Shown here piece after piece: positions 2,807-32,191 of a stretch of DNA of 64,000 bases; the first letter of the stretch is position 1; every line of letters starts with the position of its first letter. The translations under genes and the position numbers were made by a program. Below the pieces are notes generated by a model. It saw nothing but the letters and a program-made list of their open reading frames with translations. It was not told where the DNA came from and did no database searches. The stretch is from NCBI GenBank assembly GCA_013817245.1, contig JACDDA010000002.1, positions 1 to 64,000 of the forward strand. Direction: 5' to 3'. Origin of the DNA: Gammaproteobacteria bacterium. Lineage in GTDB: Bacteria; Pseudomonadota; Gammaproteobacteria; HTCC5015.

Positions 2807-3463
2807 TTACAAATAAATCCGCGCCATAACAAACATACCCGTGTGAACAGAAGAATCGTCAGTACTGGTTTCTATACTAGAATATTTCTCTTCGTAACCG
2901 CCTAATGAAGAGTTATATGAATATTCATATTTATCATTGCTTCCCTTTAATTCCATTTTTTTATAGGTTATTACTGCGCCAATGCCCAAATAAATTTTAT
3001 CGTGCGCCTTATATTCAAAGCCTAAGCGTGGAGCTATAAAGAAGCCGTCTCCTTCCAAATTATGGCTACGTCTATCTAAATACTCATAATCATTATATTG
3101 ATCAATAACTCTATGATACTCATTAACACTAGTCACTTTTTTTCGCGAATATCCGAAATTTAAACCATAGTTAAATAATATTTTTCCTGTGAAGGAATCA
3201 TGTTTATATATTCCCACGCCCAAAGAAGAAACGTCGCTCGAATTACTATAAGCGTATCTATACAAATTATGGGTTGAATAAAGAGGCTCTTCATCATCAG
3301 TTGATTCATGAAATACAAATGGTTCGATAATATAACGCGCTGTTCGTATCGGCATAGATAAGTAACTGCTTCCTCCTAGATCTACGCCCAGACCTATCTC
3401 CGCACTAGTTGCCGGAAAAGAAATAGTGACCAGTAATGCTGCAATGCTTATATATCGAATCAT
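2807..3463 (-). CDS. Predicted outer-membrane beta-barrel protein (paralogue A)
   Basis: This 218-residue protein has a signal peptide (MIRYISIAALLVTISFPATSA). The mature part is rich in alternating polar and aromatic strands and ends in ARIYL, compatible with a small outer-membrane barrel. It is homologous to the gene just upstream: both share the EIGLG start of the mature chain, a PIRTxxYIxEPF block and a GFEYKA/GLEYKA block. No characterised family is recognised. The pair probably arose by tandem duplication and could form one transcript, although 98 bp separate them. Confidence 0.7.
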   Translation of the reverse strand: MIRYISIAALLVTISFPATSAEIGLGVDLGGSSYLSMPIRTARYIIEPFVFHESTDDEEPLYSTHNLYRYAYSNSSDVSSLGVGIYKHDSFTGKILFNYGLNFGYSRKKVTSVNEYHRVIDQYNDYEYLDRRSHNLEGDGFFIAPRLGFEYKAHDKIYLGIGAVITYKKMELKGSNDKYEYSYNSSLGGYEEKYSSIETSTDDSSVHTGMFVMARIYL

Positions 3464-3561
3464 TTTGTAGCCTCTAAATTATATCGTGCTGTTAATTTTA
3501 ACTGTTTGTTTACATGCGGGTCGTGAGCGCTTGCCTCTTAAGATATCGCGAGCTGTTTAAA

Positions 3562-4212
3562 TTAAAAATATAGCCTTACTTTCAAGTTGCTACCTGTAGA
3601 AGTAGAGGACCGCGCTGAAGATGTGCGTTGTTTATCAAATTCTTCGACAGAAGAATAAAGAGTGTTGTAATACGAATATTCTTCAGAAGTGCCTGTTGAT
3701 TTTGTATTTGTGTAAGTCATATAGGCATTTATGCCAACATATATATTCTTATAAGCTTTATATTCAAGCCCAAGTTCTGGCCCCACAAAATATCCAGACC
3801 CATCACTATTATTAGCATCCTGCGACACGCTGATATTTCCATTGGAATCACTTTGATAGCTATAATAGTTATAAGTTTTTTCTTCGGTTTTTATATACCC
3901 CAATTTCACACCATAATTTATAGAAAAATTTTCTGCTAAAGCTTGATACGCATAAATTCCTAAACCAATAGAGTTATTTTCTATGGCACTTTTATAATTA
4001 CTTACACTAGTAGATTCTGATGAGGGCTGATCTTCATTCGCATACTCATAAGACCAATGCGATATAAAAGGCTCAAAAATGTAATGCTCGGTGCGGATTG
4101 GAATTGATATTGAACTATTACCCCAGAATGTTGAACCTAAGCCTATTTCCACACTGCTCGCTGAAAACGAAGCCAGCATTAGTAATATTGTGATGTTTAT
4201 ATTTCGGATCAT
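3562..4212 (-). CDS. Predicted outer-membrane beta-barrel protein (paralogue B)
   Basis: This 216-residue protein has a signal peptide (MIRNINITILLMLASFSASS) and a mature part starting VEIGLG. It has many Tyr/Ser/Asn-rich strands and a C-terminal VRLYF ending, the aromatic terminus expected of a Bam-inserted barrel. It shares the N-terminal signal, the PIRTEHYIFEPF block and the LGLEYKAYKNIYVGI block with its downstream neighbour; the loop regions between differ strongly. Divergent loops on a shared barrel suggest surface variation, but the function is unknown. Confidence 0.7.
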   Translation of the reverse strand: MIRNINITILLMLASFSASSVEIGLGSTFWGNSSISIPIRTEHYIFEPFISHWSYEYANEDQPSSESTSVSNYKSAIENNSIGLGIYAYQALAENFSINYGVKLGYIKTEEKTYNYYSYQSDSNGNISVSQDANNSDGSGYFVGPELGLEYKAYKNIYVGINAYMTYTNTKSTGTSEEYSYYNTLYSSVEEFDKQRTSSARSSTSTGSNLKVRLYF

Positions 4213-9173: not shown

Positions 9174-11225
9174 TTATAAAACTACCAGCGCATCTAAGGC
9201 TAAAACGCCATTAGGTAATGCGCGCACCGGATTAATATCAAGTTCTTTTATTTCTGGGTGTTCACACAACAAACGCGAAACGGATACTAACGCTTGCGCT
9301 AACGCTTTTTTATCTTTCGCTGGCGCACCACGCCAACCGTCTAACAACGCTTTGCCGCGCAAACTTTCAATCATTTCTTCTGCATCAACAATATCTAATG
9401 GCGCCAAGCGCGTGCAAACATCTTTAATCGCTTCTGCTTCCGTACCACCCAAACCTAATAATACGGTGGGGCCGAATACGGGATCTTGCAAACCACCAAT
9501 AATTAAATCAACGCCACTGCTCGCCATTTCTTCTACAAAATAACCGCGTTTTTTGTTGCTGCTCTCGATCGCATCAATTGCATCTAGGGCTTTGTTAAAT
9601 TGTTCTTCATTGCTGATTTTTAAATGTACGCCGCCTACATCGGATTTATGCGTAATGGTTCCGTCTAATACTTTTACTACTAAAGGCGGACGAAATTTTG
9701 AAAATGCAACTTGTGCTTCAGCGCGGGTCCAACAGGCTGCGGAATGCGGAGTTTTAAAACCGTATTCATTTAATAATGTTTTACCTTGATGCTCATCTAA
9801 AGCATTACCAATATCCACTTTTAATGCGGCTTTGGGTTTAGCTGTTTCGCTTTTGCCATAACGACTACGACGATGCGCATATTTTGCATCATTAACTAAT
9901 GCAATCACGGCGCGCGCGGCGCGTTCAGGTGATGCAAACGCCGGCACACCTAAATTATTTAATGCTTTTAAAGTAGGATCTATTTCTTCAGGCAAACCTT
10001 GCGTGCCAAATATTAAGGGTTGTTTAACAACACCTTGAGCTTTTGTGAAAACATCCACTGGATCAATGGCGGCAGCCTCGGCAATCGCGTAGGTGATGGT
10101 TGCATCAATCGCGGGATCTTGATTAATGATTTGCAAAATTTCAGCAAACGCAGGCGACGGACGACCCGTGTCGACCGGATTTTTAATATACGTCAGCGGC
10201 GGCAAATGTTCGGCGATTTTTTTAACCGTAGCATCAGACAAATCTGGCATTTCAACGTGTTGTGATTTTAATTGATCCAAAATCAACAAAGCAGGACCTG
10301 CTTGGCCAGTTAATAATGCAATGCCGGGATTTGCTTTTGGTGTTAAACGTCGACGCGCTAATGCGCTTACTGCATCGGCTAATTCATGCGTGCTATCAAC
10401 CACTACTGCACCGGCTTGTTTTAATGCAGAAATTTTTAAATCATAAGAGCCAGCCAAGTTGCCAGTGTGCGATTGCGCAAATGCGCCCACATCAGCGCGA
10501 CCAATCGTAATCGCAACCACAGGTTTTTTCAGTGTGGCTTTGCTAATTGCATTAAATAATTTGCGGCCATCAGCAATGCCTTCTAAGTGCAACGCGATGG
10601 CTTTGGTTGCAGGATCATCCGCTAAAAATTCAATCACGTCCGCCGCATCAACATCCACAGCATTGCCTAAACCTACGGATAAACTAACGCCTAAACCTAA
10701 ATGATGAATTAAAAATGCAACGGTTAAATTCACGCCGCCACTTTGCGCCACAACTGCGATATCGCCTGCGGCAATTTTATCGATGCCAGGCACGAAACAA
10801 ACTGATGCGCCTACTGCTGGACGTAAAAATCCTGAGGTGTTAGGGCCGAGCAAACGAATGTTGTTGTCATGACAAATTTTTAAAATATCATTTTGTAATT
10901 TCAAACCTTCTTCGCCGGATTCACCAAAACCACCGCTGACAATTAACGCTGCGCCTAATTTTGCTTTTGCGCCATCTTGTAATGCGCCCACGCAGGCAGC
11001 AGCAGGAATCGCAAGTAATGCTAAATCAACTGGCTGACCAATTGCTTCTAATGATGGATACGCTTTGTGGCCGAGAATTTCATCGGCTTTTGGATTGATC
11101 GGATACACTTTGCCTGGAAAATTGGCTAACGCTTTTACCGCTTCATAACCCGCTTTGCCGGGTGACGCTGATGCGCCGATGATGGCGATGGATTTAGGAT
11201 TAAATAATCTAGCTAATGTCGTCAT
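9174..11225 (-). CDS. ADP-forming acyl/aryl-CoA ligase (single chain, alpha-beta fusion)
   Basis: This 683-residue NDP-forming CoA ligase has a CoA-binding Rossmann domain first (IAIIGASASPGKAGYEA). The succinyl-CoA-synthetase-like domain carries SHTGNLAGS, whose His253 is at the family's phosphohistidine position, followed by a linker. The C-terminal ATP-grasp domain (VVKVLDGTITHKSDVGGVHL, and ELDINPV near the end) completes it. The family makes acyl-CoA from an acid, ATP and CoA, releasing ADP. As last gene of the gentisate operon it most likely activates an aromatic acid, but this is inferred from context; acetyl- or other short acyl-CoA ligases share the architecture. Confidence 0.85.
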   Translation of the reverse strand: MTTLARLFNPKSIAIIGASASPGKAGYEAVKALANFPGKVYPINPKADEILGHKAYPSLEAIGQPVDLALLAIPAAACVGALQDGAKAKLGAALIVSGGFGESGEEGLKLQNDILKICHDNNIRLLGPNTSGFLRPAVGASVCFVPGIDKIAAGDIAVVAQSGGVNLTVAFLIHHLGLGVSLSVGLGNAVDVDAADVIEFLADDPATKAIALHLEGIADGRKLFNAISKATLKKPVVAITIGRADVGAFAQSHTGNLAGSYDLKISALKQAGAVVVDSTHELADAVSALARRRLTPKANPGIALLTGQAGPALLILDQLKSQHVEMPDLSDATVKKIAEHLPPLTYIKNPVDTGRPSPAFAEILQIINQDPAIDATITYAIAEAAAIDPVDVFTKAQGVVKQPLIFGTQGLPEEIDPTLKALNNLGVPAFASPERAARAVIALVNDAKYAHRRSRYGKSETAKPKAALKVDIGNALDEHQGKTLLNEYGFKTPHSAACWTRAEAQVAFSKFRPPLVVKVLDGTITHKSDVGGVHLKISNEEQFNKALDAIDAIESSNKKRGYFVEEMASSGVDLIIGGLQDPVFGPTVLLGLGGTEAEAIKDVCTRLAPLDIVDAEEMIESLRGKALLDGWRGAPAKDKKALAQALVSVSRLLCEHPEIKELDINPVRALPNGVLALDALVVL

Positions 11226-11266
11226 ATTAAAAGTCCACTCTAATATTAAATTTTAATTTGCTTTAT

Positions 11267-11911
11267 TTATTCGGCATCCGGCTGCGCTTCAGGCGCGGCT
11301 TGTTTGAATGCGTCAAACTGCACTAATGCGTCATTGATGCGCGACAAATGCGGATAAGCATTCATGTCACATTTAAAACGCTTCGCGTTATAAACTTGCG
11401 GCACTAAACATACGTCGGCCATAGTAATGGTATCGCCAAAACAATATTTGCCTGCGTGTCGACTGACTAATTCTTCTAAACCTATAAAACCTTCTGTGAC
11501 CCAATGTTGATACCACGTGTTCGCGGTATCTTCGTCATGTTTCAAAGTGGTTTTTAGATAATTTAAGACGCGTAAATTATTGAGCGGATGAATTTCGCAA
11601 GCAATGGCTTGTGCCATGGCGCGTACGTGCGCGCGGGCAACAATATCCGTCGGTAATAATTTCGCAGTGTTGGGATACGCTTCATCGAGATATTCAATGA
11701 TCGCGAGTGATTGTCCTAACGCATTGCCGTTATCTTCTAAAGCCGGCACTAAACCCATGGGATTTAAAGCAAGATATTCTGGTTTTTTATGTTGACCACC
11801 ATCTTTACGAAAATGCACAAAATGGGGTTCGTAACTTAAACCTTTATGATTCAGCGCAATGCGCACGCGATATGCGGCGGAGCTACGAAAGAAAGTATAG
11901 AGTTTTAACAT
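11267..11911 (-). CDS. Zeta-class GST, probable maleylpyruvate isomerase
   Basis: This 214-residue protein has a thioredoxin-fold N-terminal GST domain with the zeta-class signature SSAAYRVRIAL (about 10-20), NPMGLVPAL and QSLAIIEYLDE, and a helical C-terminal domain. Zeta GSTs isomerise maleylacetoacetate or maleylpyruvate using glutathione. No homogentisate gene is nearby, while gentisate dioxygenase and fumarylpyruvate hydrolase are in the same operon. Conversion of maleylpyruvate to fumarylpyruvate is therefore the likely step. Sequence alone does not separate the two substrates. Confidence 0.85.
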   Translation of the reverse strand: MLKLYTFFRSSAAYRVRIALNHKGLSYEPHFVHFRKDGGQHKKPEYLALNPMGLVPALEDNGNALGQSLAIIEYLDEAYPNTAKLLPTDIVARAHVRAMAQAIACEIHPLNNLRVLNYLKTTLKHDEDTANTWYQHWVTEGFIGLEELVSRHAGKYCFGDTITMADVCLVPQVYNAKRFKCDMNAYPHLSRINDALVQFDAFKQAAPEAQPDAE

Positions 11912-11956
11912 GATGAGCTCTCCTTAAATACGGTAGATAATTTTTTAATTAATATT

Positions 11957-12385
11957 CTAGTCTTCTAGTTCAACAAATCTTTTTATGAAGGCTTCTGGTA
12001 AAGGTAGCGCTACTAACTTACCCACATTTACAGGATCGTTTATTCCCCAAAAACGGGTTTCAGTACCTTCAACGGCCACGACACCTTGATTGATAACGCG
12101 ATGTTGTAATTCAAAGGTGCGCTCGCGCCATGATGTTAGTCGTGTTTCGATGGTTAGCGGTTCGCAATAACGACAAGGGGCGCGAAATTTAGCATTCACA
12201 TCTACTAATGGAATGCCCACCGTGTTGTATTGTTGCATTGCTTGCGGAATAGGCAAATCGATAGCTGCAAAATAAGCCCAGGCCGCACGATCAAACCAAC
12301 GGAAATAATTTGGATAAAACAAAATGCCGGCGTTATCGCATTCGCCCCATTCGGCAGTGAAGGTTTGTATTTGAGTGCGTTTCAT
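11957..12385 (-). CDS. Hotdog acyl-CoA thioesterase, 4-hydroxybenzoyl-CoA thioesterase type
   Basis: This 142-residue single-hotdog protein has the active-site segment WGECDNAGILFYPNYFRWFD (about 13-32). Asp17 sits at the position of the catalytic Asp17 of Pseudomonas 4-hydroxybenzoyl-CoA thioesterase. The family hydrolyses aryl- or acyl-CoA esters in the cytoplasm. Placed between CoA ligase and gentisate dioxygenase genes, it probably frees gentisate from gentisyl-CoA so that ring cleavage can follow. Substrate is inferred from context only. Confidence 0.85.
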   Translation of the reverse strand: MKRTQIQTFTAEWGECDNAGILFYPNYFRWFDRAAWAYFAAIDLPIPQAMQQYNTVGIPLVDVNAKFRAPCRYCEPLTIETRLTSWRERTFELQHRVINQGVVAVEGTETRFWGINDPVNVGKLVALPLPEAFIKRFVELED

Positions 12386-12443
12386 CGGTGTTGTGTTATC
12401 AGCCGACTAAACGGTCGACTGATAACAATCTGCCATGTATTAA

Positions 12444-13133
12444 TTAAACGATTTTGGTAACTAACATTTCGTCGATGCCTTCAATACCACCAGTAATGGT
12501 ATCGCCAACTTTTACAGCGCCAACGCCAGCAGGTGTGCCGGTGTAAATTAAATCGCCAGCTTGTAATTTGAAAAATTTCGATAAGATAGAAACGATTTCC
12601 GCTGTATCCCAAATTAACTCTTTCAAATCCGCTTCTTGACGGGTTTCATTATTTACTTTCAACCAAATCTTGCCAGATTCTAAATGACCAACTTGGCTAA
12701 CAGGATAAATTTTGGTGATCGGTGCAGATAAATCGAAAGCTTTGCCCGCATCCCATGGACGACCTTGTTCACGCGCAACTAATTGTAAATCACGACGTGT
12801 TAAATCGTTACCAACGGCATAACCATATATATAGTCTTTGGCTTTTTCGATCGGCACATTCACGGCTTCTTTACCAATCGCAATGACTAATTCAATTTCG
12901 TGATGAAAGTTTTCGGTTTCAGTTGCATAAGGAACATCAACATTGTTTGCAACAACTGCATCAGCTGGTTTGCAAAAAAAGAATGGCGGATCGCGCTCAG
13001 GATCTTTGCCCATTTCACGCGCATGCGCAGCGTAGTTACGACCCACGCAATAAATGCGATGGACAGGAAAACGATCTTTAGTGCCAGCAACTTCAACGCT
13101 GGGAATTTCAGTGGCGGGAACAACGTAACCCAT
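12444..13133 (-). CDS. Fumarylacetoacetate hydrolase family, probable fumarylpyruvate hydrolase
   Basis: This 229-residue protein is the length of the short FAH-family enzymes. Key motifs are YCVGRNYAAHAREMG, FFFCKPADAV, the metal-binding HHEIELVIAIG (ExE), GNDLTRRDLQ and YTGTPAGVGAV. NagK-type fumarylpyruvate hydrolases have this size and split fumarylpyruvate into fumarate and pyruvate. The operon position, between the dioxygenase and the isomerase, fits the last step of the gentisate route. Isomerase or decarboxylase activity as in other FAH proteins cannot be ruled out. Confidence 0.87.
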   Translation of the reverse strand: MGYVVPATEIPSVEVAGTKDRFPVHRIYCVGRNYAAHAREMGKDPERDPPFFFCKPADAVVANNVDVPYATETENFHHEIELVIAIGKEAVNVPIEKAKDYIYGYAVGNDLTRRDLQLVAREQGRPWDAGKAFDLSAPITKIYPVSQVGHLESGKIWLKVNNETRQEADLKELIWDTAEIVSILSKFFKLQAGDLIYTGTPAGVGAVKVGDTITGGIEGIDEMLVTKIV

Positions 13134-13264
13134 GTGAATCTCCTTTAAAAAATCATGAACAATATAAATGTATATAAATCTGCGATCTCAGCATGCCCAA
13201 TGAATGAGCAGATGACAGATGATCACAGCACAAGAAAGGTGGCGTAGTTTAGCGGTTTGCTACT

Positions 13265-13831
13265 TTAAAAGACATAGAACGTCGCGTTGCTCACTGACAA
13301 CGGCCAACGACCTGCAGTAAATAAACGTAAACGCGCCATGAAAGGATGCCCTTCGCCTGCATCATTCAACATCGCTAAGGCTGCTTGAAAACACGCTTGT
13401 GACGCCGAACCCGCTGCCACTCGACTTAAGTTTTGATCTGCAACACCCATACGCGCTGCTGCTAATGCGGCATGGCCATGCACATGTTCCGCCGACATTT
13501 CATTTACTTCAGTAAGCAACATCAACAAAGCGTATTCGCCGATTGTTTTGCTGGCTTTTTCAAATAATTCTTTGCGTTGTTTCTCTTCCGCTTTCCACCA
13601 AAATTGATCCCATTCAGGATCCATCGTGATGCGCCGCGCTTCCGACCAATTCGCTACTGCTTTTACACTGTACGAAGCAAAACCAATTGTTTTGATGTAT
13701 TGCTCAGCATCGTGTTGCTCGGTTTCAACCATAGGCTCGCCTACTGCTGTAAACCAACTGGCTTCATTAATATCATCGTATAAGCGCTGCAATTTTTTTT
13801 GCTGCGCGGCAAGATCTAACACTGCTGGCAT
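13265..13831 (-). CDS. Unrecognised helical protein, candidate partner subunit of the diiron oxygenase
   Basis: This 188-residue mostly helical soluble protein is rich in Ala, Glu and Trp (PEWDQFWWKAEEKQRKELFEK is the most striking stretch). It is encoded 30 bp after the gentisate dioxygenase gene. I do not recognise a family. It has no clean pair of ExxH motifs as in PaaA, so an iron-free structural subunit, as PaaC is to PaaA, is a reasonable guess. A single AEHVHGH segment near residue 114 might bind metal. Function is open; operon membership is its strongest evidence. Confidence 0.6.
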   Translation of the reverse strand: MPAVLDLAAQQKKLQRLYDDINEASWFTAVGEPMVETEQHDAEQYIKTIGFASYSVKAVANWSEARRITMDPEWDQFWWKAEEKQRKELFEKASKTIGEYALLMLLTEVNEMSAEHVHGHAALAAARMGVADQNLSRVAAGSASQACFQAALAMLNDAGEGHPFMARLRLFTAGRWPLSVSNATFYVF

Positions 13832-13861
13832 ATCAACTCGCTTAATTCGTTAGAGATATTA

Positions 13862-14920
13862 TTAACGTGAGACGGGGCTTTTTTCTTCGCGCCATATACC
13901 AATTTTTTCTTGCACTACACGATCAGAATAACTAAACAACACCGCATCTTCTGGCACTTCGTGATAATGGAAAGTCCAATTTGGAATGGTGAATACATCA
14001 TGCGCTTTCCAATGGAATGTCTGATCGCCAATCACCGTTTTACCGCTGCCTTCAACAACAACATAAACCGTTGCATCAGTAGAACGATAGGGCAAAGTTT
14101 TAAAATCTTTTGGCAATAACTGCATGCTGGTTGCAATGCTTGGCATTGCCCAACCACCCGTAATTGGATTGACGTATTTTAATTTAATGCCGTGCCACGG
14201 ATCCCATTCCGCCGCGTTACGCAAGGTTTCTAAGGCTTCGCGGGTGCGGGTGTACGGATAATTAAAGACCGGTGAATTTAAATTTTTTGGTTTGTAATCA
14301 ATCGGCAATAAACCTGAGCCGTAACGCGCTAAAGCATCACCTTCTGGACGACTAACATCTTGCATTGGCTTACCTAAATCTTCTGCGAAACCGGCGCCGA
14401 AGAAATGCACGAGTTCAATATCTAAGCCATCTAACCAAATAACAGGTTCGTTTACTTCGCTGCCGTGATCGTGCCATGTCCATGCGGGCGTAATAATAAA
14501 ATCGCCTGGATGCATAATGGTTTTTTCGCCATCAACCGCGGTGTATGCGCCGCTACCTTCGATAATAAAACGTAAAGCCGATTGCGAATGACGATGGCTT
14601 GGCGCAACTTCACCGGGCAAAATTAATTGCAGCCCAGCATATAACGAATTAGTGATTTTAGAATCACCACGGAATTCTGGATTTTCTAAAATCAATACGC
14701 GACGAATCGCTTCTTCTGCGGTAATTAAGGTGCCTGCTTCCATCAAATGTTTACGCAGCACACTGTAATCCCAATGCGCAGGTTTGCCTTTGATGATCGG
14801 CGTGGGCGTGACCAATGCGTGCAGAATTTCCCACAGCGGAGTCAGGTTATCCGCGGAAATTTTGTTGTAGTACGACTTACGCACCTGTTGCATTTCTTGA
14901 TCAGCGGGCTTGTTCATCAC
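13862..14920 (-). CDS. Gentisate 1,2-dioxygenase
   Basis: This 352-residue bicupin dioxygenase cleaves gentisate between C1 and C2 to maleylpyruvate using Fe(II) and O2. The first cupin holds the iron ligand pattern HRHSQSALRFIIEGSGAYT (His109, His111) and a later His150 (TWHDHGSE). The second cupin (about 268-340) carries VYVVVEGSGKTVIGD without a full ligand set, as in the family. The length is typical (about 340-370). The neighbouring isomerase and hydrolase genes complete the pathway to fumarate and pyruvate. Start at the first of two Met; either is possible. Confidence 0.92.
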   Translation of the reverse strand: MMNKPADQEMQQVRKSYYNKISADNLTPLWEILHALVTPTPIIKGKPAHWDYSVLRKHLMEAGTLITAEEAIRRVLILENPEFRGDSKITNSLYAGLQLILPGEVAPSHRHSQSALRFIIEGSGAYTAVDGEKTIMHPGDFIITPAWTWHDHGSEVNEPVIWLDGLDIELVHFFGAGFAEDLGKPMQDVSRPEGDALARYGSGLLPIDYKPKNLNSPVFNYPYTRTREALETLRNAAEWDPWHGIKLKYVNPITGGWAMPSIATSMQLLPKDFKTLPYRSTDATVYVVVEGSGKTVIGDQTFHWKAHDVFTIPNWTFHYHEVPEDAVLFSYSDRVVQEKIGIWREEKSPVSR

Positions 14921-14987
14921 ACTACTCCTGTTTCGGTTGTATTCTGCACGTCATCAATTACTGACATTACTTCATTTTGGAAAACTA

Positions 14988-15695
14988 TTACGCCGCTAAT
15001 TTCACTTCTGGCATTACTAAACCATATTTATCAGCAGCTTCTTTAGCGCGAACTAAAAAGTCTTCCACCATTTCTTCGTTCTTACGTTGCTTAATGCCCC
15101 ATTTACGGTACATGTCGTTGTTCTTAGAATTTGGTGCGCCAAAAAACGGTGGTAACAATGGGATGTAACGATTCATCGCTTCTTGTACCGCTTTTCTGCC
15201 TTCTTCGGTTTTGATCAATTCACCAACGAATTCAACGCCGAAGTCATGATGGAAACGTTCTTCCGGCATCGTTGAACGCGCTAAATTGCGCAAAGGATGG
15301 AATGGGCAATGCAACAAATCTTCTACTTGCAAAATTTCTGCTAAGTCAGCAAACATTTTGATCACGCAGAATTCAGCCCAACTGGTTAATTCAAATTCAA
15401 AAATAGTGTTGTGCGCTTTATCGCGACCTGGTTCTAACTGTGCTTCAGGAATGCCGATTTTGTCGCCGAGTTCACGGAAACGCACGTGATGCGCATATTC
15501 TTCCATCGCTACACGGCAGGTTAACCATTTAGCATACGGAGTAGGTGCAAGTGCAATAGCAGGTTCATCAAATGCGCGCGCGCCTTGTAATTCATTTACT
15601 GAATGGCTGCGAACGATTTTGCGAACGGCATCTTTGAATTCTTGTGGTGCGCTTTCGAATTCTTCGATAGTTTTAATTTCGATTTGTGCTGACAT
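14988..15695 (-). CDS. PaaA/BoxB-like diiron oxygenase (candidate aryl-CoA hydroxylase)
   Basis: This 235-residue ferritin-like four-helix protein is related to the phenylacetyl-CoA epoxidase catalytic subunit PaaA. Two ExxH iron motifs are visible, MEEYAHH (Glu66, His69) and MPEERFHHD (Glu146, His149), 80 residues apart. PaaA has ligands Glu72/His75 and Glu155/His158, almost the same spacing. Glu35 and Asp117 fit the remaining two ligands. The family oxidises the ring of CoA-bound aromatics, so with a CoA ligase, a reductase and a thioesterase in the operon this is the likely ring hydroxylase or epoxidase. It is shorter than PaaA (about 310 residues), and no paaBCD genes are present. Confidence 0.82.
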   Translation of the reverse strand: MSAQIEIKTIEEFESAPQEFKDAVRKIVRSHSVNELQGARAFDEPAIALAPTPYAKWLTCRVAMEEYAHHVRFRELGDKIGIPEAQLEPGRDKAHNTIFEFELTSWAEFCVIKMFADLAEILQVEDLLHCPFHPLRNLARSTMPEERFHHDFGVEFVGELIKTEEGRKAVQEAMNRYIPLLPPFFGAPNSKNNDMYRKWGIKQRKNEEMVEDFLVRAKEAADKYGLVMPEVKLAA

Positions 15696-15727
15696 AGTAT
15701 TACCTCCAGAAAAATAATTAAATTTAC

Positions 15728-16666
15728 TTAAACGACAGGTTCGTAATTGAATGCGTCGAGATCCGTTGATAGATCAACAAACTTCGGCACAAAGTCTTCT
15801 TTCATTTGATCCGCCAGCTGCGCTGCTGTCCATTCACCTTCGGCTGGTTTCAGCACGCAGGCAATCGGACGTGGTTGCGAGAACAAAAATATTTCGCGGC
15901 CACGTGCGCCAAACAATTGCCCAGAAATAGCTTGTGCTTCAGGCGAACATAAAAATGCAACGAAGCCGCCCACATGCGCAGCATCAATTTTTTGCGCACG
16001 GGTTTTGTATTCACCTTCGGGCACTAAATCGGTTACGCGGGTTGCCGCAAACGGACAAATTGCATTCGCTGTAACATTCGAACGACTCATTTCTTGCGCG
16101 GTGACGCGTGTCAAACTAAACAAACCGCCTTTTGCACTGGCGTAATTGGAAGTGCCCACGTTACCGTATAAACCCGCCGTCGATAACATGTTAACAACTC
16201 GTCCCCATTGATAACTTTCGCCGCCGCGACCCGACTTTGCTTGATCACGTAATACGGGCGTCGCTGCATTTAATAAATAATACGCAGCCGATAAATTATT
16301 TTGCATAACGCGATCCCAATCGGCGGGATTACCTTTAAACAACATGGCATCACGCAAAATTGCGGCGTTGTTAACAATGATGTCAACGCCGCCAAAAGTG
16401 TCTAGCGCTAATTTCACCGCAGCTTGCGCAGCAGCTGGACTCGCCATATTTTGCGTAAACGCGATCGTGTTCGCGCCTAATGTTTTTGCTAATGCTTGTG
16501 CTACGTTCGCATCTTCGCCGTCACCATTTACGGCGGCGCCGTTATCCGCAATAACAACACTCGCGCCCCGCGCATGTAATGCTTCAACAATGGCTTTACC
16601 AATGCCGCGCGCGCCACCGGTAACAATCGCCACTCGGCCTTGTAATGATTTTGTTTCTGTTGTCAT
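15728..16666 (-). CDS. Short-chain dehydrogenase/reductase
   Basis: This 312-residue classical SDR has the cofactor motif TGGARGIG (16-23), NNAA (99-102) and the catalytic Ser162, Tyr175 and Lys179 (YASAK). The chain is longer than a plain SDR, with a tail of about 60 residues (RPIACVLKPAEGEW onward) like that in 3-hydroxyacyl-CoA-dehydrogenase-type SDRs. It overlaps the reductase gene by 4 bases and lies 33 bp before the diiron oxygenase gene, so the three are co-expressed. It may oxidise a dihydrodiol- or hydroxyacyl-CoA intermediate, which is inference only. Confidence 0.85.
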   Translation of the reverse strand: MTTETKSLQGRVAIVTGGARGIGKAIVEALHARGASVVIADNGAAVNGDGEDANVAQALAKTLGANTIAFTQNMASPAAAQAAVKLALDTFGGVDIIVNNAAILRDAMLFKGNPADWDRVMQNNLSAAYYLLNAATPVLRDQAKSGRGGESYQWGRVVNMLSTAGLYGNVGTSNYASAKGGLFSLTRVTAQEMSRSNVTANAICPFAATRVTDLVPEGEYKTRAQKIDAAHVGGFVAFLCSPEAQAISGQLFGARGREIFLFSQPRPIACVLKPAEGEWTAAQLADQMKEDFVPKFVDLSTDLDAFNYEPVV

Positions 16667-17697
16667 GCTGCGCCACCTAATGCGGTTTGTTCTGCTTGCG
16701 TATAAAACGCATCGGCGTGAATTTTTTCTTTAATCACACCTAATTCGCCACACAGTGCGGTAGCCGCATTTACCATCGGTGGAGGCCCGCATAAATACGC
16801 GCGAAACTCCGCCATGTCTTTAAAGTCGTGACGTACTGCATCGGTTACAAAACCGGTGCGGCGTGTTGTTGCGGCACTGGGTTCGGATAACACCGGCACA
16901 TATTTAAAATTCGGAAATTGCTTAGCCAAATTTTCAAAATGTTCAACTAAATATAAATCACGTTCGTCACGTGCACCGTAATAAAAATGTATCGGCTGGG
17001 TTGCGCCCGCGTGTAATGCGGTTTCAACAATCGACATGATCGGCGCTAATCCTGAACCACCTGCGATACCAATAATAGGGCTGCTGTCTTTTTCACGATA
17101 ATAAGCAGAACCATTGGGGCCTTTGACGCGCACCAGATCACCGACGGCTAATTTTTCTGCAACATAATTACTGAGCAGACCGTTCGGTACTTGCCGAACG
17201 TGAAATTCTAACTCTGCTTCCTCTGGACGATTTGCCATTGAATATTGTCGTTGCGGAATATCGCGCCCCGGCACTTCAAGATCCGCAAATTGACCCGCGG
17301 TAAAGGTATAAGGGCCACCACCATCGATACGAATTTTGATGCGCCAAATATCATGCGTCATCTGATCTTTGGCGGTAATCGTGCAACGCATAATGCGTAA
17401 GGGATGTACCACACGATCTTCGGATTCTAACCAGGCAATTTCGCAATCGCTCCAAGGCACTGCGCGGCAACATAAAACCAAACCTTCATCTTTTTCGGCT
17501 TGGCTAAGTGCAAATTCAGAATAAGACGCCATTTCGACTTCACCGCTATATAAACGGGACTTACACGCCGCGCAATTACCAGCACGGCAATCAAACGGAT
17601 AATTCACGCCTTGCTCGAGCGCAGCATCCAGAATAGTCTGACCCATCTTGACGGTAATGGGCTGCTCAACTTGTCGAATTTTTACTGAAAAGCTCAT
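16663..17697 (-). CDS. Ferredoxin/FAD/NAD(P) oxidoreductase, electron supplier for the diiron oxygenase
   Basis: A reductase of about 344 residues. The N-terminal plant-type 2Fe-2S domain has CRAGNCAAC (CX4CX2C, Cys37, 42, 45) and a fourth Cys near 76. Then come an FAD-binding domain (RQYSMANRP) and a NAD-binding domain (GIAGGSGLAPIMSIV, CGPPPMV). This order matches class IB reductases of the phenol hydroxylase, benzoate dioxygenase and BoxA type. As first gene of the operon it likely passes electrons from NAD(P)H to the PaaA-like protein. I chose ATG at 17697 because GGAAG lies 6 bases upstream; an in-frame start at 17754 would run through the operator. Confidence 0.9.
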   Translation of the reverse strand: MSFSVKIRQVEQPITVKMGQTILDAALEQGVNYPFDCRAGNCAACKSRLYSGEVEMASYSEFALSQAEKDEGLVLCCRAVPWSDCEIAWLESEDRVVHPLRIMRCTITAKDQMTHDIWRIKIRIDGGGPYTFTAGQFADLEVPGRDIPQRQYSMANRPEEAELEFHVRQVPNGLLSNYVAEKLAVGDLVRVKGPNGSAYYREKDSSPIIGIAGGSGLAPIMSIVETALHAGATQPIHFYYGARDERDLYLVEHFENLAKQFPNFKYVPVLSEPSAATTRRTGFVTDAVRHDFKDMAEFRAYLCGPPPMVNAATALCGELGVIKEKIHADAFYTQAEQTALGGAA

Positions 17698-17713
17698 TGC
17701 ACTTCCGCTGCGA

Positions 17714-17740
17714 TATATTGTAAGGTACCCATACAATATA
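17714..17740. promoter_or_regulatory. Perfect inverted repeat, likely MarR operator of the gentisate operon
   Basis: TATATTGTA (17714-17722) and TACAATATA (17732-17740) are perfect 9-bp arms with a 9-bp spacer (AGGTACCCA). The repeat lies between the divergent reductase and MarR genes, immediately downstream of and overlapping the predicted -10 box, so a bound repressor would block initiation. AT-rich dyads of this size are typical MarR-family sites. Confidence 0.75.
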
Positions 17741-17762
17741 GACGGTAAGCCCAAACTGTCAA
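17735..17762 (-). promoter_or_regulatory. Promoter of the CoA/gentisate operon
   Basis: On the minus strand TTGACA (17762-17757) is followed after 16 bp by TATATT (17740-17735). The -10 box is inside the right arm of the inverted repeat. Transcription would start near 17728 and leave about 30 bases of leader before the ATG at 17697. Confidence 0.6.
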
Positions 17763-17835
17763 GTGGATTTTTTAATAAAACCTTAATAATTTATTTCAAT
17801 AACGTTGTTAGCACGCGATCGAGCAGGAAACGACC

Positions 17836-18321
17836 ATGACGGATAAGCCCAGCAAATCACTTAATAAATCCCTTAATAAACCGGGAGACAAAACCCATTA
17901 CGGGATTCTGCCGTCTTTATTAGGATTTCAAGTGCGTCGCGCTCAGTTTGCCATGTTCCAGCATTTTCAAAAATACATAGAAATGACCGATATCACGCCT
18001 AGCCAAACCGGTGTTCTCGTTTTGGTCGGTGAAAATCCTGGCATTAGCCAAGTAGCGCTGGCTAAAGCCATCGGCATCGAACGCGCCAGTCTCGGCGAAG
18101 TCATCGGGCGTTTTGAAAAACAAGGTTGGATTACCCGCAAAGAAGCACCTTGGGATAAACGCTCACTTGCGGTTTATTTAACCGAGGCCGGCGAAAAATT
18201 AGTAAAAGAACTGCTGCCGGCTATTCAAGCGCATGAAGAACTTTTATCGAATAACTTCACAACGGAAGAACGCGAAACCTTAATTCATTTGTTGCGCCGC
18301 TTAGCCGATAATTTCGATTAA
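17836..18321 (+). CDS. MarR-family regulator, likely repressor of the gentisate operon
   Basis: This 161-residue protein has a winged-helix core (ITPSQTGVLVLVGENPGISQ, then VALAKAIGIERASLGEVIGR) and the family's dimerisation helices at both ends. It is divergent from the nine-gene aromatic operon and separated by a short region with a perfect dyad. MarR repressors of aromatic catabolism usually respond to the acid or its CoA ester; the ligand here is unknown. A second MarR in the window (31742-32191) is of the same subfamily. The N-terminal 20 residues (repeated SLNK) are not conserved and the true start may be later. Confidence 0.87.
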   Translation: MTDKPSKSLNKSLNKPGDKTHYGILPSLLGFQVRRAQFAMFQHFQKYIEMTDITPSQTGVLVLVGENPGISQVALAKAIGIERASLGEVIGRFEKQGWITRKEAPWDKRSLAVYLTEAGEKLVKELLPAIQAHEELLSNNFTTEERETLIHLLRRLADNFD

Positions 18322-20630: not shown

Positions 20631-20817
20631 CTCGCCACCCGACAAAATGATGTTTTTTCTCTAAAAAAAGATGGTTTTTGCTAAAAAAAGGGCGTAGATT
20701 TGCTGCTGCTGCGGATTTTGCCGCGATTGTTTAGGTTCGTATCCTCGTGTTACTCCAAAAACTCCCCGCTTATAAAGCTGCAGTTCTTCTTCAACTTCTC
20801 TAAATTGGTAAATAGAA

Positions 20818-21021
20818 ATGGCTACAGGTACTGTTAAATGGTTCAACGAGTCTAAGGGTTATGGTTTCATCACCCCAGACAATGGCAGCAAAGACGTGTT
20901 TGTACACTTCCAAGCTATCCAAGGCTCCGGTTTCCGCACTTTGGCCGAAGGCCAAAAAGTGGCTTTCGACATCGAGCAAGGCCCCAAAGGCCCTCAAGCA
21001 GCGAATGTTGTAGCACAGTAA
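20818..21021 (+). CDS. cspA: Cold-shock protein, CspA family
   Basis: This 67-residue single cold-shock domain has the RNP1 motif (KGYGFITP) and RNP2 motif (VFVHF). It binds single-stranded RNA and acts as an RNA chaperone and antiterminator. The upstream gap is about 230 bp, long enough for the structured leader usual for csp genes, and a clear terminator follows. Whether it is cold-induced cannot be told from sequence; several csp paralogues usually exist in one genome. Confidence 0.93.
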
Positions 21022-21047
21022 TTTTACTGTTCTATCGCGACTTGAAC

Positions 21048-21072
21048 AAAAGCCCCGCCATGCGGGGTTTTT
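21048..21072 (+). terminator. Rho-independent terminator of cspA
   Basis: CCCCGC (21053-21058), loop CAT, GCGGGG (21062-21067), then TTTTT. An AAAAG run precedes the stem, so weak function on the opposite strand for rlmKL is possible. Confidence 0.88.
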
Positions 21073-21102
21073 GCTTTTTAGCTTATTAAGTTAAAGACCG
21101 CA

Positions 21103-23250
21103 TTAAGATGCGTGTTTAATTTGATAAACCTGATGAATATGTAAATCCCGCAAAAAATCAGGATCTGTCATGGCGCGACTCACATCTTTTATGTGATAAC
21201 GCGTTTCTAACACAGCATCCAATTTAAATTTACGATAATTCGTCGAAAAAATTAAAACCCCACCTTTGCTCAATAAACGCATTACATGTTGAATGATTTC
21301 AGCATGGTCACGTTGAATATCTAAAGTGCCTTCCATGCCTTTAGAGTTTGAAAAACTCGGTGGATCTAGGAAAATTACATCATATTGTCCATACGCCGTT
21401 TCTATCCATTCCAAACAATTGGCGCGCAAGACGCGGTGTTTGCGTAAGTCCATGCCGTTCAATTTAAAATTATGTTCAGCCCATTCGATATAGGTATTCG
21501 ACAAATCAACGCTCACACTTTCACTAGCGCCCGCCAAAGCGGCTTGCACCGTAACGCTGCCGGTATAACAAAATAAATTTAAAAAACGTTGGCCTTGTAC
21601 ATTTTCAGCAATCCAACGGCGCACCGGCCGATGATCTAAAAATAATCCTGTATCCAAATAGTCAGTTAAGTTTATTGAATACTGTGCCGGGCCTTCTTGC
21701 ACAATCATGGTTTCGCCGCGTTGATTCAATTTTTGATATTGTTCTTTGCCTTTTTGACGGCGACGTTCTTTATAAAAAATTCTTTCTTCTGGCACATTCA
21801 ACGCTACCGGTAACGCACGCTGAATTTCTTTAAAGCGTTTAGCGGCCGCTTCATCATCCACGGTTTTCGGTGCGGCATATTCGGCTACATGCACATAGTT
21901 TGCGTAAATATCGACGGCTACCGAATATTCCGGCATATCCGCATCATACAAACGATACGCATGAATATTATTTTTCTTAACCCAACTCGCTAATTTTTTC
22001 TGATTTTTTTGCAAGCGATTAGCAAACATTTGCGCGCCTTCGCTTAAGCGCGGAATCCCATCACGAAAATTTTCTGCTTGCACTGAAAACAACAATAACT
22101 TACACGGCAAGGCACCATTAAACAGCGCGTACGATTTTTGCGAACGCAAACCTAATGCGTGACCAAAATCAGGATTGCCAGTAAAAATCGCCGCCTGCCA
22201 TGATTGGAATCCTTTTTTTATACTCGTGCCAATCTGCGCGTACAACGCTCGCAAACCTTTTTCTTCACTAAGGCGTTCGCCGTAAGGTGGATTAGTAATC
22301 AATAATCCCTGCACCTTATTTTTATCGTCGTCTTCATTAAGTATTTGCTGCGTAGGATTTTTTAAGTGCTCAACCGCTTGCTGCTCAAAATGTAAATGTT
22401 TCGCAACGCCGGCGCGCAATGCATTGGCTCGTGCTTGTTGTAATACTTTGGCATCTTGATCATAACCATACGCTATTATTTCTTGCAGTGGTTTTTGTGC
22501 GGCGCTGGCTGCGTCTACTTGCAACTGCCACAAAGCCGGATCATGCCCACGCCATGCATCTAATTCAAAAGGCGCGCGCAACACACCAGGAGCAATATTT
22601 GCTGCCATTAAAGCCGCTTCAATCAACAAGGTACCCGAGCCGCACAACGGATCTACAATGGGCGCATGATCCATTAGCGCTGGCCAACCCGCGCGAATTA
22701 ATAAAGCGGCCGCTAAATTTTCTTTGAGCGGTGCGATGCCTGCTTCTAAACGATAACCGCGCTGATGTAGTGAATGACCATTGAGCTGCAAACTCAAAGT
22801 TAAATGTTCGTGATGCAAACGCGCATGAATGCGTATGTCAGGATTTTGTGTATCAACGGAAGGTCGATCGCCCAACTGATTACGCATGCGATCAACAACC
22901 GCATCTTTAATGCGTTGCGCGCCAAATTGTGTATGACGAATATGTTCGTTACTGCCATCAAAATTAACGACAAACGTTGTGGATGTTTGTAAATGCTCTT
23001 CCCACGGAATGTTGGCCGCGATCTCGTACAATGCCTCGGGCGAATCTAATTTTGCTTGCGCTAAAATAATGCGAATGCCATTGGCTAAACGCGTCCACAA
23101 ACCGACACGATAAATTTCTTCCAGAGTCATGTCGGCCGCAACACCTGCTACCGCTGTTTTGCTTACAGTAATACCAAGCTGCGCGCATTCATCAGCTAAC
23201 AAACCTTCGATTGATTTAGGGCAGGTAATAAAACATTCGTATTGAGTCAT
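21103..23250 (-). CDS. rlmL: Fused 23S rRNA methyltransferase RlmKL (m2G2445 / m7G2069)
   Basis: A 715-residue double methyltransferase. The N-terminal half has a THUMP domain and an RlmL domain (DPLCGSGTLLIEAALMAANI, then LLITNPPYGERL). The C-terminal half is RlmK (LNLFCYTGSVTVQAALAGA, then DVIFLDPPSFSNSKGM). The fusion is the usual gammaproteobacterial form, about 700 residues in E. coli. It modifies 23S rRNA at G2445 and G2069 during assembly. It is monocistronic in appearance. Confidence 0.94.
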   Translation of the reverse strand: MTQYECFITCPKSIEGLLADECAQLGITVSKTAVAGVAADMTLEEIYRVGLWTRLANGIRIILAQAKLDSPEALYEIAANIPWEEHLQTSTTFVVNFDGSNEHIRHTQFGAQRIKDAVVDRMRNQLGDRPSVDTQNPDIRIHARLHHEHLTLSLQLNGHSLHQRGYRLEAGIAPLKENLAAALLIRAGWPALMDHAPIVDPLCGSGTLLIEAALMAANIAPGVLRAPFELDAWRGHDPALWQLQVDAASAAQKPLQEIIAYGYDQDAKVLQQARANALRAGVAKHLHFEQQAVEHLKNPTQQILNEDDDKNKVQGLLITNPPYGERLSEEKGLRALYAQIGTSIKKGFQSWQAAIFTGNPDFGHALGLRSQKSYALFNGALPCKLLLFSVQAENFRDGIPRLSEGAQMFANRLQKNQKKLASWVKKNNIHAYRLYDADMPEYSVAVDIYANYVHVAEYAAPKTVDDEAAAKRFKEIQRALPVALNVPEERIFYKERRRQKGKEQYQKLNQRGETMIVQEGPAQYSINLTDYLDTGLFLDHRPVRRWIAENVQGQRFLNLFCYTGSVTVQAALAGASESVSVDLSNTYIEWAEHNFKLNGMDLRKHRVLRANCLEWIETAYGQYDVIFLDPPSFSNSKGMEGTLDIQRDHAEIIQHVMRLLSKGGVLIFSTNYRKFKLDAVLETRYHIKDVSRAMTDPDFLRDLHIHQVYQIKHAS

Positions 23251-30046: not shown

Positions 30047-31564
30047 TCAAGCACCGATGGCTTTAGCATCAATAATATGTTGCTTCCAAATTTGTGGACC
30101 AGTTTGATGCACTGATTCACCTTTGCTATCTACCGCGACTGTCACTGGCATGTCTTCGACGACAAATTCATGGATCGCTTCCATGCCTAAATCTTCAAAA
30201 CCTACAATATGAGCTTTACGTATGGCTTTAGAGACTAAATACGCTGCACCACCTACCGCCATTAAATAAACGGCTTGATGTTTTTTGATCGCTTCAATCG
30301 CAATAGGTCCGCGTTCGGCTTTACCGATCATGCCGATCAAACCGGTTTGCGCGAGCATGGTTTCGGTAAATTTATCCATTCGCGTTGCGGTGGTCGGGCC
30401 GGCCGGGCCGACCACTTCATTGCCCACTGGATCGACGGGGCCCACGTAATAAATGAATTTATTTTTAAAATCGACCGGTAATTTTTCACCTTTGGCTAAC
30501 ATATCCACCATGCGTTTATGCGCGGCATCACGGCCGGTAAACATGCTACCGCTCAGCAATAAGGTTTCGCCCGGCTGCCAAGTTTGGATTTCCGCCGGGG
30601 TGACATTATTTAAATTTACGCGCTTAACACTGGCACCAATTTCCCAGGCGATCTTGGGCCAGTCTTCTAATTTTGGTACTGGCAATTCAGCGATACCGCT
30701 GCCGTCTAATTCAAAATGCACATGCCGTGTCGCGGCGCAGTTCGGAATCATTGCTACTGGTTTATTCGCTGCGTGAGTTGGGTAATCCAAAATTTGCACA
30801 TCAAGCACGGTCGTTAAACCGCCTAAACCTTGCGCGCCAATACCTAAATCATTCACGGCTTGGAAAATTTCCAAACGTAATTCTTCTAAACCATTTTGTG
30901 CGCCGCGTGCTTTGAGCTCATGAATGTCGATAGACTTCATGCAGGCTTCTTTAGCCATCAACATGGCTTTTTCTGCGGTGCCGCCAATGCCAATACCTAA
31001 AATACCCGGCGGACACCAACCCGCGCCCATGGTGGGTACTGTTTTAACGATCCAATCGACTATCGAATCGGATGGATTCAACATGGCTAGTTTTGATTTC
31101 GCTTCGGAGCCGCCACCTTTGGCCGCCACTTGTACATCAATAACATCACCGGGCACCACGCTCATATGAATAACCGCAGGGGTGTTGTCTTTGGTATTGA
31201 TACGTTTTCCGGCGGGATCGCTCAAAATCGACGCGCGTAATTTATTATCGGGATGGTTATAAGCACGACGCACACCTTCATTCACCATTTCTTCGACGCT
31301 CAATTGGGTATCCCACTGCACTTGCATACCGATTTTTAAAATCACGGTGACGATGCCTGTGTCTTGGCAAATGGGACGATGACCTTCTGCGCACATGCGT
31401 GAGTTGATCAAAATTTGCGCCAGCGCGTCTTTGGCTGAAGCGGATTCTTCTTTTAGATAGGCTGCATGCACCGCATCAATAAAATCTTTCGGGTGGTAAT
31501 ACGAAATGTGCTGCAACGCGTCAGCAATACTTTGAATAAAATCGTCTTGGCGAATAACGGTCAT
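30047..31564 (-). CDS. Class I fumarate hydratase (4Fe-4S)
   Basis: A 505-residue one-chain class I fumarase. The Fe-S ligand region has RMCAEGHRPICQDTG near the N-terminus, with further Cys in GAGWCPPGILGIGIGG and PNCAATRHVHFEL. The C-terminal half has PVGNEVVGPAGPTTATRMDKF. This oxygen-sensitive fumarase interconverts fumarate and malate. I chose ATG 31564 since GAGAG lies 4 bases upstream; the TTG at 31579 is unlikely. The neighbouring MarR gene is divergent. Fumarate is a product of the gentisate operon, though that lies 12 kb away. FumA or FumB type cannot be separated. Confidence 0.93.
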   Translation of the reverse strand: MTVIRQDDFIQSIADALQHISYYHPKDFIDAVHAAYLKEESASAKDALAQILINSRMCAEGHRPICQDTGIVTVILKIGMQVQWDTQLSVEEMVNEGVRRAYNHPDNKLRASILSDPAGKRINTKDNTPAVIHMSVVPGDVIDVQVAAKGGGSEAKSKLAMLNPSDSIVDWIVKTVPTMGAGWCPPGILGIGIGGTAEKAMLMAKEACMKSIDIHELKARGAQNGLEELRLEIFQAVNDLGIGAQGLGGLTTVLDVQILDYPTHAANKPVAMIPNCAATRHVHFELDGSGIAELPVPKLEDWPKIAWEIGASVKRVNLNNVTPAEIQTWQPGETLLLSGSMFTGRDAAHKRMVDMLAKGEKLPVDFKNKFIYYVGPVDPVGNEVVGPAGPTTATRMDKFTETMLAQTGLIGMIGKAERGPIAIEAIKKHQAVYLMAVGGAAYLVSKAIRKAHIVGFEDLGMEAIHEFVVEDMPVTVAVDSKGESVHQTGPQIWKQHIIDAKAIGA

Positions 31565-31741
31565 AACACTCTCTCGCAACAGCAGCAGCAGTAGTCAAAT
31601 AAGGATCGGAACAGAACGGTGATTGGACAAGATTCTCAGCTTGGTGTATTTAGTTTGTAACACCCACTATCGGCAAGGCCAACTATTCATGCGGCAGTTT
31701 ACCACTGGCATTCATTCGACTGAAGCGAAACACGTGCGATC

Positions 31742-32191
31742 ATGAGCCGCACAGAATTTCTAGATCTCGATATCCTGCCGCAGTTGATTGGTTACAATAT
31801 TCAACGCGCGCAAATTGCGGTGTATCGGGATTTTATGCGCAGCGTCGAAGATTACGGCATGACGCCTACGCAGTTTGCCGTATTAGCCTTGGTCGGCGCC
31901 AATGCGGGAGTTTCACAAGTAAGCTTGGGGAAAACGCTAAACGTGGATCGCGCCACCATTATGGCGGTAGTGGATAAATTGCAAAATCGGAATTTATTAG
32001 AACGACGACCTTCGGTGCAAGATCGACGCAAACAAGATTTACATTTAACCGCGCATGGCGAAGAGAGCTTACAGATTTTGCGAAACCGCATTCACGCGCA
32101 TGAAGCGCGTTTAACGACTCAGTTTTCTAGCGATGAAGGTCTCGAATTAATTCGCCTATTACAAAAACTGCAACGGTCGCCACGTGATTAA
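31742..32191 (+). CDS. MarR-family regulator (second copy)
   Basis: A 149-residue protein, winged-helix core MTPTQFAVLALVGANAGVSQ, then VSLGKTLNVDRATIMAVVDKL, wing RRPSVQDRRKQDLHLT. Its N-terminal helix (ILPQLIGYNIQRAQIAVYRDF) aligns with that of the MarR at 17836 (LPSLLGFQVRRAQFAMFQHF), so the two are close relatives. It is divergent from class I fumarase and may regulate it or itself. No dyad like that of the gentisate operon is seen in the 160-bp gap. Confidence 0.87.
   Translation: MSRTEFLDLDILPQLIGYNIQRAQIAVYRDFMRSVEDYGMTPTQFAVLALVGANAGVSQVSLGKTLNVDRATIMAVVDKLQNRNLLERRPSVQDRRKQDLHLTAHGEESLQILRNRIHAHEARLTTQFSSDEGLELIRLLQKLQRSPRD

Follow-up and report, generated by a model that had tools for sequence, protein, structure and literature searches.

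Can an aromatic acid enter the gentisate pathway after its coenzyme A (CoA) ester has been oxygenated by a PaaA-type enzyme? The question is raised by a nine-gene operon in the DNA stretch analysed here (the window; positions 1 to 64,000 of contig JACDDA010000002.1, assembly GCA_013817245.1, Gammaproteobacteria bacterium). A first-pass annotation, made from the sequence alone, had listed in this operon a CoA ligase, a PaaA-like di-iron oxygenase (PaaA') with its reductase, a short-chain dehydrogenase/reductase (SDR), a thioesterase and a complete gentisate ring-cleavage set. Open reading frames (ORFs) and family matches confirm this content, and the remaining gene encodes a conserved protein termed X188. 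The gene identities, the intact di-iron ligands of PaaA' and the conserved linkage of the genes were observed directly. The operon fairly probably encodes an aerobic hybrid (CoA-dependent) route that would carry a simple aromatic acid via gentisate to fumarate and pyruvate, with each of its reactions being a prediction.

The gentisate set and its linkage to the oxygenase

The assignments of gentisate 1,2-dioxygenase (GDO) and of the isomerase are firm by family match, those of the other enzymes are clear at the domain level, and X188 matches no Pfam or NCBIfam family. Both GDO and the isomerase exceed their curated cut-offs and share one operon with a FAH-family hydrolase (Table 1), which supports the aryl-CoA-to-gentisate route; the isomerase and FAH models do not tell pyruvate from acetoacetate substrates. 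A negative result of the Pfam and NCBIfam searches also argues for the route: none of the nine products is a ring-opening crotonase or aldehyde dehydrogenase such as those of the Box and Paa pathways.

Recurrence of the same gene set in other genomes, which had been suggested as a check, was found in ~18 families. For the comparison, 57 related loci were fetched, 37 of them outside the G493 order, and the window was counted apart. Whole-genome searches located orthologous modules, with PaaA' ~60-68% identical, in 47 of 76 genomes of the G493 order, 20 of 399 of the G109 order and 18 of 289 of the G493 class. These groups are probably the Burkholderiales (G109 order), the Alphaproteobacteria (G493 class) and a Reyranella-like order within the latter. 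Counted by family, the linked clusters cover five in one order and 12 in the other class, to which the family of the window is added; this spread suggests that the association is more than chance. The gene order is nearly constant in the 57 loci, with reductase, SDR and PaaA' following one another and, in most of them, a MarR orthologue transcribed in the opposite direction, away from the module. Outside the G493 order, 34 of the 37 loci contain GDO, in 32 of them immediately after PaaA'; the three exceptions include L164, a 3-kb contig, and L008. Two genomes without an adjacent GDO were searched for one elsewhere, and both have a copy of the same group: the unlinked copy in L008 is 55% identical to the window GDO, and the single unlinked copy in G493 is 69% identical to a cluster GDO. 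As a control, 23 loci with a true PaaA or a distant relative (~83 kb in total) were examined and yielded no GDO; the control loci are the shorter set. FAH hydrolase matches occur in 24 of the 57 loci, a few being more distant family members. The sharing of an operon with GDO in many lineages, together with the exchanged CoA-activation types and recurrent thioesterases described below, supports the conversion of an aryl-CoA to gentisate.

The distribution of PaaA' was examined at several scales. Early searches of the window genome's relatives and class returned no PaaA' orthologue, and a contig scan with exact peptide patterns returned one relative only; extreme rarity of PaaA' was overturned by the wider whole-genome searches. 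A plasmid origin was rejected, as tblastn searches of plasmids turned up no PaaA' match of 60% identity or more (~26-28% among the matches listed) and no X188 match at all, and no viral contig was found. The PaaA' of L008, a metagenome-assembled genome of the Betaproteobacteria, groups with the G109-order copies. The window PaaA' sits on a long branch whose nearest copies, with weak support, are those of the other class, and lateral transfer of the window copy is only a guess from this placement.

Some related loci carry further genes. In L139, L130 and ~13 other Burkholderiales-type loci, a BKACE-type beta-keto acid cleavage enzyme and a PdxA homologue are encoded between the FAH gene and the ligase, and nine of these clusters also contain a D-threonate-kinase-like protein. 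Class A flavin monooxygenases in or near the module (L160:5377-6573; L008:7153-8808) are possible peripheral hydroxylases and may hint at the substrate.

PaaA' retains the di-iron site of PaaA

By fold and ligands, PaaA' belongs with the PaaA/BoxB-type di-iron oxygenases. Its AF2 model (pLDDT 95.7) adopts the ferritin-like PaaA/BoxB fold, with Foldseek TM values of 0.87 to PaaA and ~0.7 to BoxB. The six di-iron ligands of PaaA (E42, E72, H75, D126, E155 and H158; PMC4498308) correspond to E35, E66, H69, D117, E146 and H149 of PaaA', which are invariant in 58 of 58 sequences. The lysine at the entrance of the PaaA pocket (Lys103) is kept as K93, invariant in 30 aligned PaaA' sequences, and the 'lysine bridge' residue Lys68 aligns with Val62. 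PaaA and BoxB, the closest characterised relatives, both act on aryl-CoA thioesters (PMC4498308), so that the shared ligands and fold support an aryl-CoA substrate and PaaA' is predicted to oxygenate one.

PaaA' nevertheless differs from the PaaABCE system, with which it shares the CoA-thioester chemistry predicted here and an NAD(P)H reductase containing a ferredoxin domain. It is ~70 residues shorter than PaaA, shares ~25% identity with the PaaA proteins found in other genomes and reaches 75 bits against the PaaA equivalog TIGR02156 (curated cut-off 280). A PF05138 profile search of the window genome returned PaaA' as the sole member and no PaaC. Neither PaaB, PaaC, PaaD, PaaG/Z nor a PaaE-type reductase was found among the operon genes by Pfam and NCBIfam, the PaaB search being confined to the operon rather than genome-wide. 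A true paa operon is ruled out by the TIGR02156 score and the absent partner subunits. The reductase has the domain order ferredoxin-FAD-NAD, as in BenC and MmoC, which differs from that of PaaE. The earlier description of a PaaA-like oxygenase with its reductase therefore holds in that both genes are present, and has to be qualified for the missing PaaB and PaaC and for the reductase architecture.

The BoxAB system offers a second comparison. It likewise has a di-iron subunit that works without PaaC and follows an aryl-CoA hybrid strategy, and PaaA' gives a weak profile match to the BoxB structure 3per (E 2e-4). BoxB, however, comprises ~475 residues, BoxA carries two 4Fe-4S clusters, and the ring is opened by BoxC and BoxD, not by GDO.

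Candidate enzymes of CoA activation and thioester release

The ADP-forming ligase of the window is complete and matches the 4-hydroxybutyrate-CoA ligase 8wzu, likewise ADP-forming, from end to end (E 2e-92); its nearest solved relatives act on small hydroxy acids and are uninformative on aromatic acids. In many related loci it is replaced by alpha-only ADP-type homologues of ~470 residues that lack the ATP-grasp domain (L139, L150, L157, L160 and others), and FadD-like AMP-forming ligases are found in L155, L161, L162 and L163. Because unrelated ligase types replace one another across the loci, the comparison provides good evidence that CoA activation matters to the module. In L154 alone, the ligase resembles benzoate-CoA ligases, which gives indirect support to an aromatic acid as the substrate of the window enzyme; this locus also carries a thioesterase of the 4-hydroxybenzoyl-CoA thioesterase (4HBT) type. 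The best NCBIfam match of this ligase is the 3-hydroxybenzoate-CoA ligase HbdA, far short of the cut-off (280 bits against 1000), with the benzoate-CoA ligase family next (268 bits, cut-off 375); in the PDB, anthranilate- and benzoate-CoA ligases match it best. A search of the window genome with the L154 enzyme gave best matches of 26% identity and thus no close benzoate-CoA ligase.

The top PDB matches of the window thioesterase are 4-hydroxybenzoyl-CoA thioesterases. The catalytic Asp region that marks class I 4HBT enzymes (WG..D...I.FYPN) is kept in six linked thioesterase copies, and L129, L156, L157 and L160 carry a 4HBT thioesterase in addition to L154.

The SDR and X188

Among solved structures, the SDR is by far nearest to (3R)-hydroxyacyl-CoA dehydrogenase (E 2e-58), an enzyme of hydroxyacyl-CoA, which supports the aryl-CoA reading. 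The Ser-Tyr-Lys catalytic pattern and an Asp at the end of beta-2 are conserved in 58 sequences; the acidic residue is typical of NAD use. The SDR may oxidise a ring carbinol at carbon 2, which would let the ring rearomatise, because a hydroxyl at this carbon is beta to the thioester. Such a role would favour ortho oxygenation of 3-hydroxybenzoyl-CoA.

X188 is modelled with high confidence (AF2 pLDDT 95) and has no fold relatives except for a weak match to the Imm5-like RhsI2; two members of its family touch the Imm5_like Pfam model. It is present in 47 of the 57 related loci and is possibly an accessory protein of the oxygenase. A degenerate PaaC-like subunit was ruled out, since X188 has no profile similarity to PaaA', no PDB sequence match and no di-iron fold match.

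Proposed route and alternative explanations

In the proposed route, the ADP-forming ligase would first form an aryl-CoA thioester. Electrons from NADH would pass through the ferredoxin-flavin reductase to PaaA', which, helped by X188, would oxygenate the ring of the CoA ester to yield gentisyl-CoA, while the SDR would probably oxidise or rearomatise the ring carbinol adjoining the thioester. The 4HBT-type thioesterase would then free gentisate, and GDO, the isomerase and the FAH hydrolase would convert it to fumarate and pyruvate. The MarR protein probably represses the operon until the aromatic acid or its CoA ester binds. As substrate, 3-hydroxybenzoate is our tentative first choice, ahead of salicylate and then of benzoate oxygenated twice, both of which appear unlikely; 4-hydroxybenzoate with a carboxyl shift is improbable, and so is any other acid. 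The succession of aryl-CoA, gentisyl-CoA and gentisate put forward at first pass is partly supported, by the comparative evidence of the linked GDO, the exchanged ligases and the 4HBT thioesterases, the gentisyl-CoA intermediate and the SDR step being putative.

Several observations weigh against this route. Hydroxylation of an already hydroxylated aryl-CoA requires no dehydrogenase, which leaves the SDR unexplained. X188 was undetected in 10 of the 57 loci, some of which are truncated contigs, and a 4HBT thioesterase was detected beside just five of the 57. Most of the linked ADP-type ligases are alpha-only, with no strong ATP-grasp_5 partner found in two of the genomes checked (G1375 and G1282), and their activity as ordinary ligases is therefore in doubt. 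The G493-order modules are separate from GDO, so that another product is possible there.

This last pattern bears on a rival explanation, in which the CoA ester oxygenated by PaaA' is non-aromatic or unrelated in some other way and the gentisate genes are merely co-regulated. The 20 G493-order loci have no linked GDO, those read in detail lie near an alpha/beta hydrolase, a PaaI-like thioesterase and an MFS transporter, and the enzyme that the SDR resembles normally acts on aliphatic chains. We nevertheless regard this explanation as unlikely: GDO directly follows PaaA' in the window as well as in the 32 related loci of many families, the G493 and L008 genomes hold a GDO of the same group elsewhere, and the L154 module is paired with a benzoate-CoA-ligase-like enzyme. 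A free aromatic acid as the substrate of the oxygenase, with the ligase and the thioesterase only recycling or detoxifying side-product thioesters, has a slightly poorer chance. It would agree with known gentisate routes, which commonly hydroxylate free 3-hydroxybenzoate or salicylate (PMC3572157, PMC13215587), and with the lack of a linked thioesterase and of a complete ligase in most related loci. Yet PaaA and BoxB use CoA esters (PMC4498308), the pocket-entrance lysine is invariant, and CoA-activating genes recur despite changing type. The epoxidase fold of PaaA' would also allow a Box- or Paa-like route, with hydrolytic opening of an aryl-CoA epoxide and a different substrate for the gentisate genes. 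This appears very improbable, as there is no PaaG-, PaaZ-, BoxC- or BoxD-type gene among the nine, the ring-cleavage genes present are of the gentisate type, and the genome has only one PF05138 gene. The CoA-dependent route to gentisate is therefore preferred.

Operon layout and other features of the window

All nine ORFs are encoded on the minus strand (9174-17754). Their spacing ranges from a 4-bp overlap (reductase/SDR) to a gap of ~130 bp (X188 to FAH hydrolase), and the MarR gene is divergent from them (Table 1). The ORF list starts the reductase at TTG 17754. ATG 17697, which would give MSFSVKIRQ, is probably the true start, because the promoter-like site covers the TTG codon and many orthologues begin with MSF.

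Table 1. Features of the operon region, with window coordinates and the matches on which they rest.
Feature	Position	Strand	Evidence
ADP-forming acyl-CoA ligase, 683 aa, fused alpha and ATP-grasp beta	9174..11225	-	CoA_binding, Succ_CoA_lig and ATP-grasp_5
Glutathione-dependent maleylpyruvate/maleylacetoacetate isomerase (zeta GST)	11267..11911	-	TIGR01262, 298 bits (cut-off 171)
Hotdog thioesterase, 4-hydroxybenzoyl-CoA thioesterase kind	11957..12385	-	PDB 5wh9 (E 9e-22), 1bvq (E 2e-19)
FAH-family hydrolase, probably fumarylpyruvate hydrolase	12444..13133	-	FAA_hydrolase PF01557, 182 bits
X188, mostly helical conserved protein, 188 aa	13265..13831	-	No Pfam or NCBIfam family
Gentisate 1,2-dioxygenase (GDO), GTG start	13862..14920	-	TIGR02272, 548 bits (curated cut-off 442)
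PaaA', PaaA-like di-iron oxygenase subunit	14988..15695	-	PaaA_PaaC PF05138, 68 bits (cut-off 28.5)
SDR	15728..16666	-	Nearest solved structure, an MFE-2-type (3R)-hydroxyacyl-CoA dehydrogenase
Reductase, 2Fe-2S ferredoxin-FAD-NAD domains	16663..17697	-	Fer2-FAD-NAD family matches; BenC/MmoC domain order
Candidate sigma-70-like promoter, TTGACA-16-TATATT	17735..17762	-	11 of 12 consensus positions; consensus match only
MarR-family regulator	17836..18321	+	Closest NCBIfam model Saro_0803 family, score below cut-off

At window 30047-32191, a second MarR gene of the Saro_0803-like group, whose product is 37% identical to the operon MarR, is divergent beside a class I fumarate hydratase gene; the proposed gentisate route would have fumarate as one of its end products. 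Elsewhere in the window, a cspA thermoregulator RNA match (RF01766, 94 bits) is located at 20698-21076, between a DEAD-box helicase gene and a convergent methyltransferase gene (21103-23250). Two tandem, similar ORFs at 2807-4212 have signal-peptide-like starts and apparently encode a duplicated exported protein.

Relation to known pathways and significance

The classical gentisate pathway of the mhb cluster shares GDO, the isomerase and the FAH-type hydrolase with the window, and is entered by a free-acid hydroxylation (PMC3572157). In the Sdg type of Streptomyces WA46, salicylate is converted to salicylyl-CoA, gentisyl-CoA (the SdgC step) and gentisate (PMC6460240, PMC13215587). The window operon would follow the same logic from aryl acid to aryl-CoA, gentisyl-CoA and gentisate. 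SdgC is a flavin hydroxylase, whereas the window has a di-iron protein with a reductase, an SDR and X188. BH1999 of Bacillus halodurans is described as a gentisyl-CoA thioesterase in a gentisate cluster, which parallels the 4HBT-class thioesterase here; the accessible part of that report ties it to no PaaA-type oxygenase (PMC516016). The first-pass annotation knew of no characterised equivalent, and a PaaA-type gentisate route was likewise not found in the literature searched, which included few subscription papers.

The operon appears to be an undescribed variant of aerobic hybrid aromatic degradation. In paa and box, the two well-described aerobic CoA-dependent strategies, the ring is epoxidised and then opened with no ring-cleavage dioxygenase involved. 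Hydroxylation at the CoA level followed by an ordinary ring-cleavage dioxygenase would, if true, be a third strategy. We give an even chance to a new two-protein class of di-iron aryl-CoA hydroxylases, PaaA' with X188, served by a BenC-like reductase and helped by the SDR, as the mark of a third aerobic hybrid pathway beside paa and box that leads to gentisate and occurs in several percent of the genomes of two large groups of proteobacteria. A route from benzoyl-CoA through 3-hydroxybenzoyl-CoA to gentisate was once proposed in denitrifying bacteria and was later superseded by the box pathway; the window gene set is a concrete candidate for this chemistry. X188 and the SDR offer testable targets for explaining the function of a PaaA-fold protein that lacks PaaB and PaaC. 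Such a strategy would also alter the prediction of aromatic degradation from genomes, because the PaaA model gives the oxygenase only a low score and one of the genes falls in no family.

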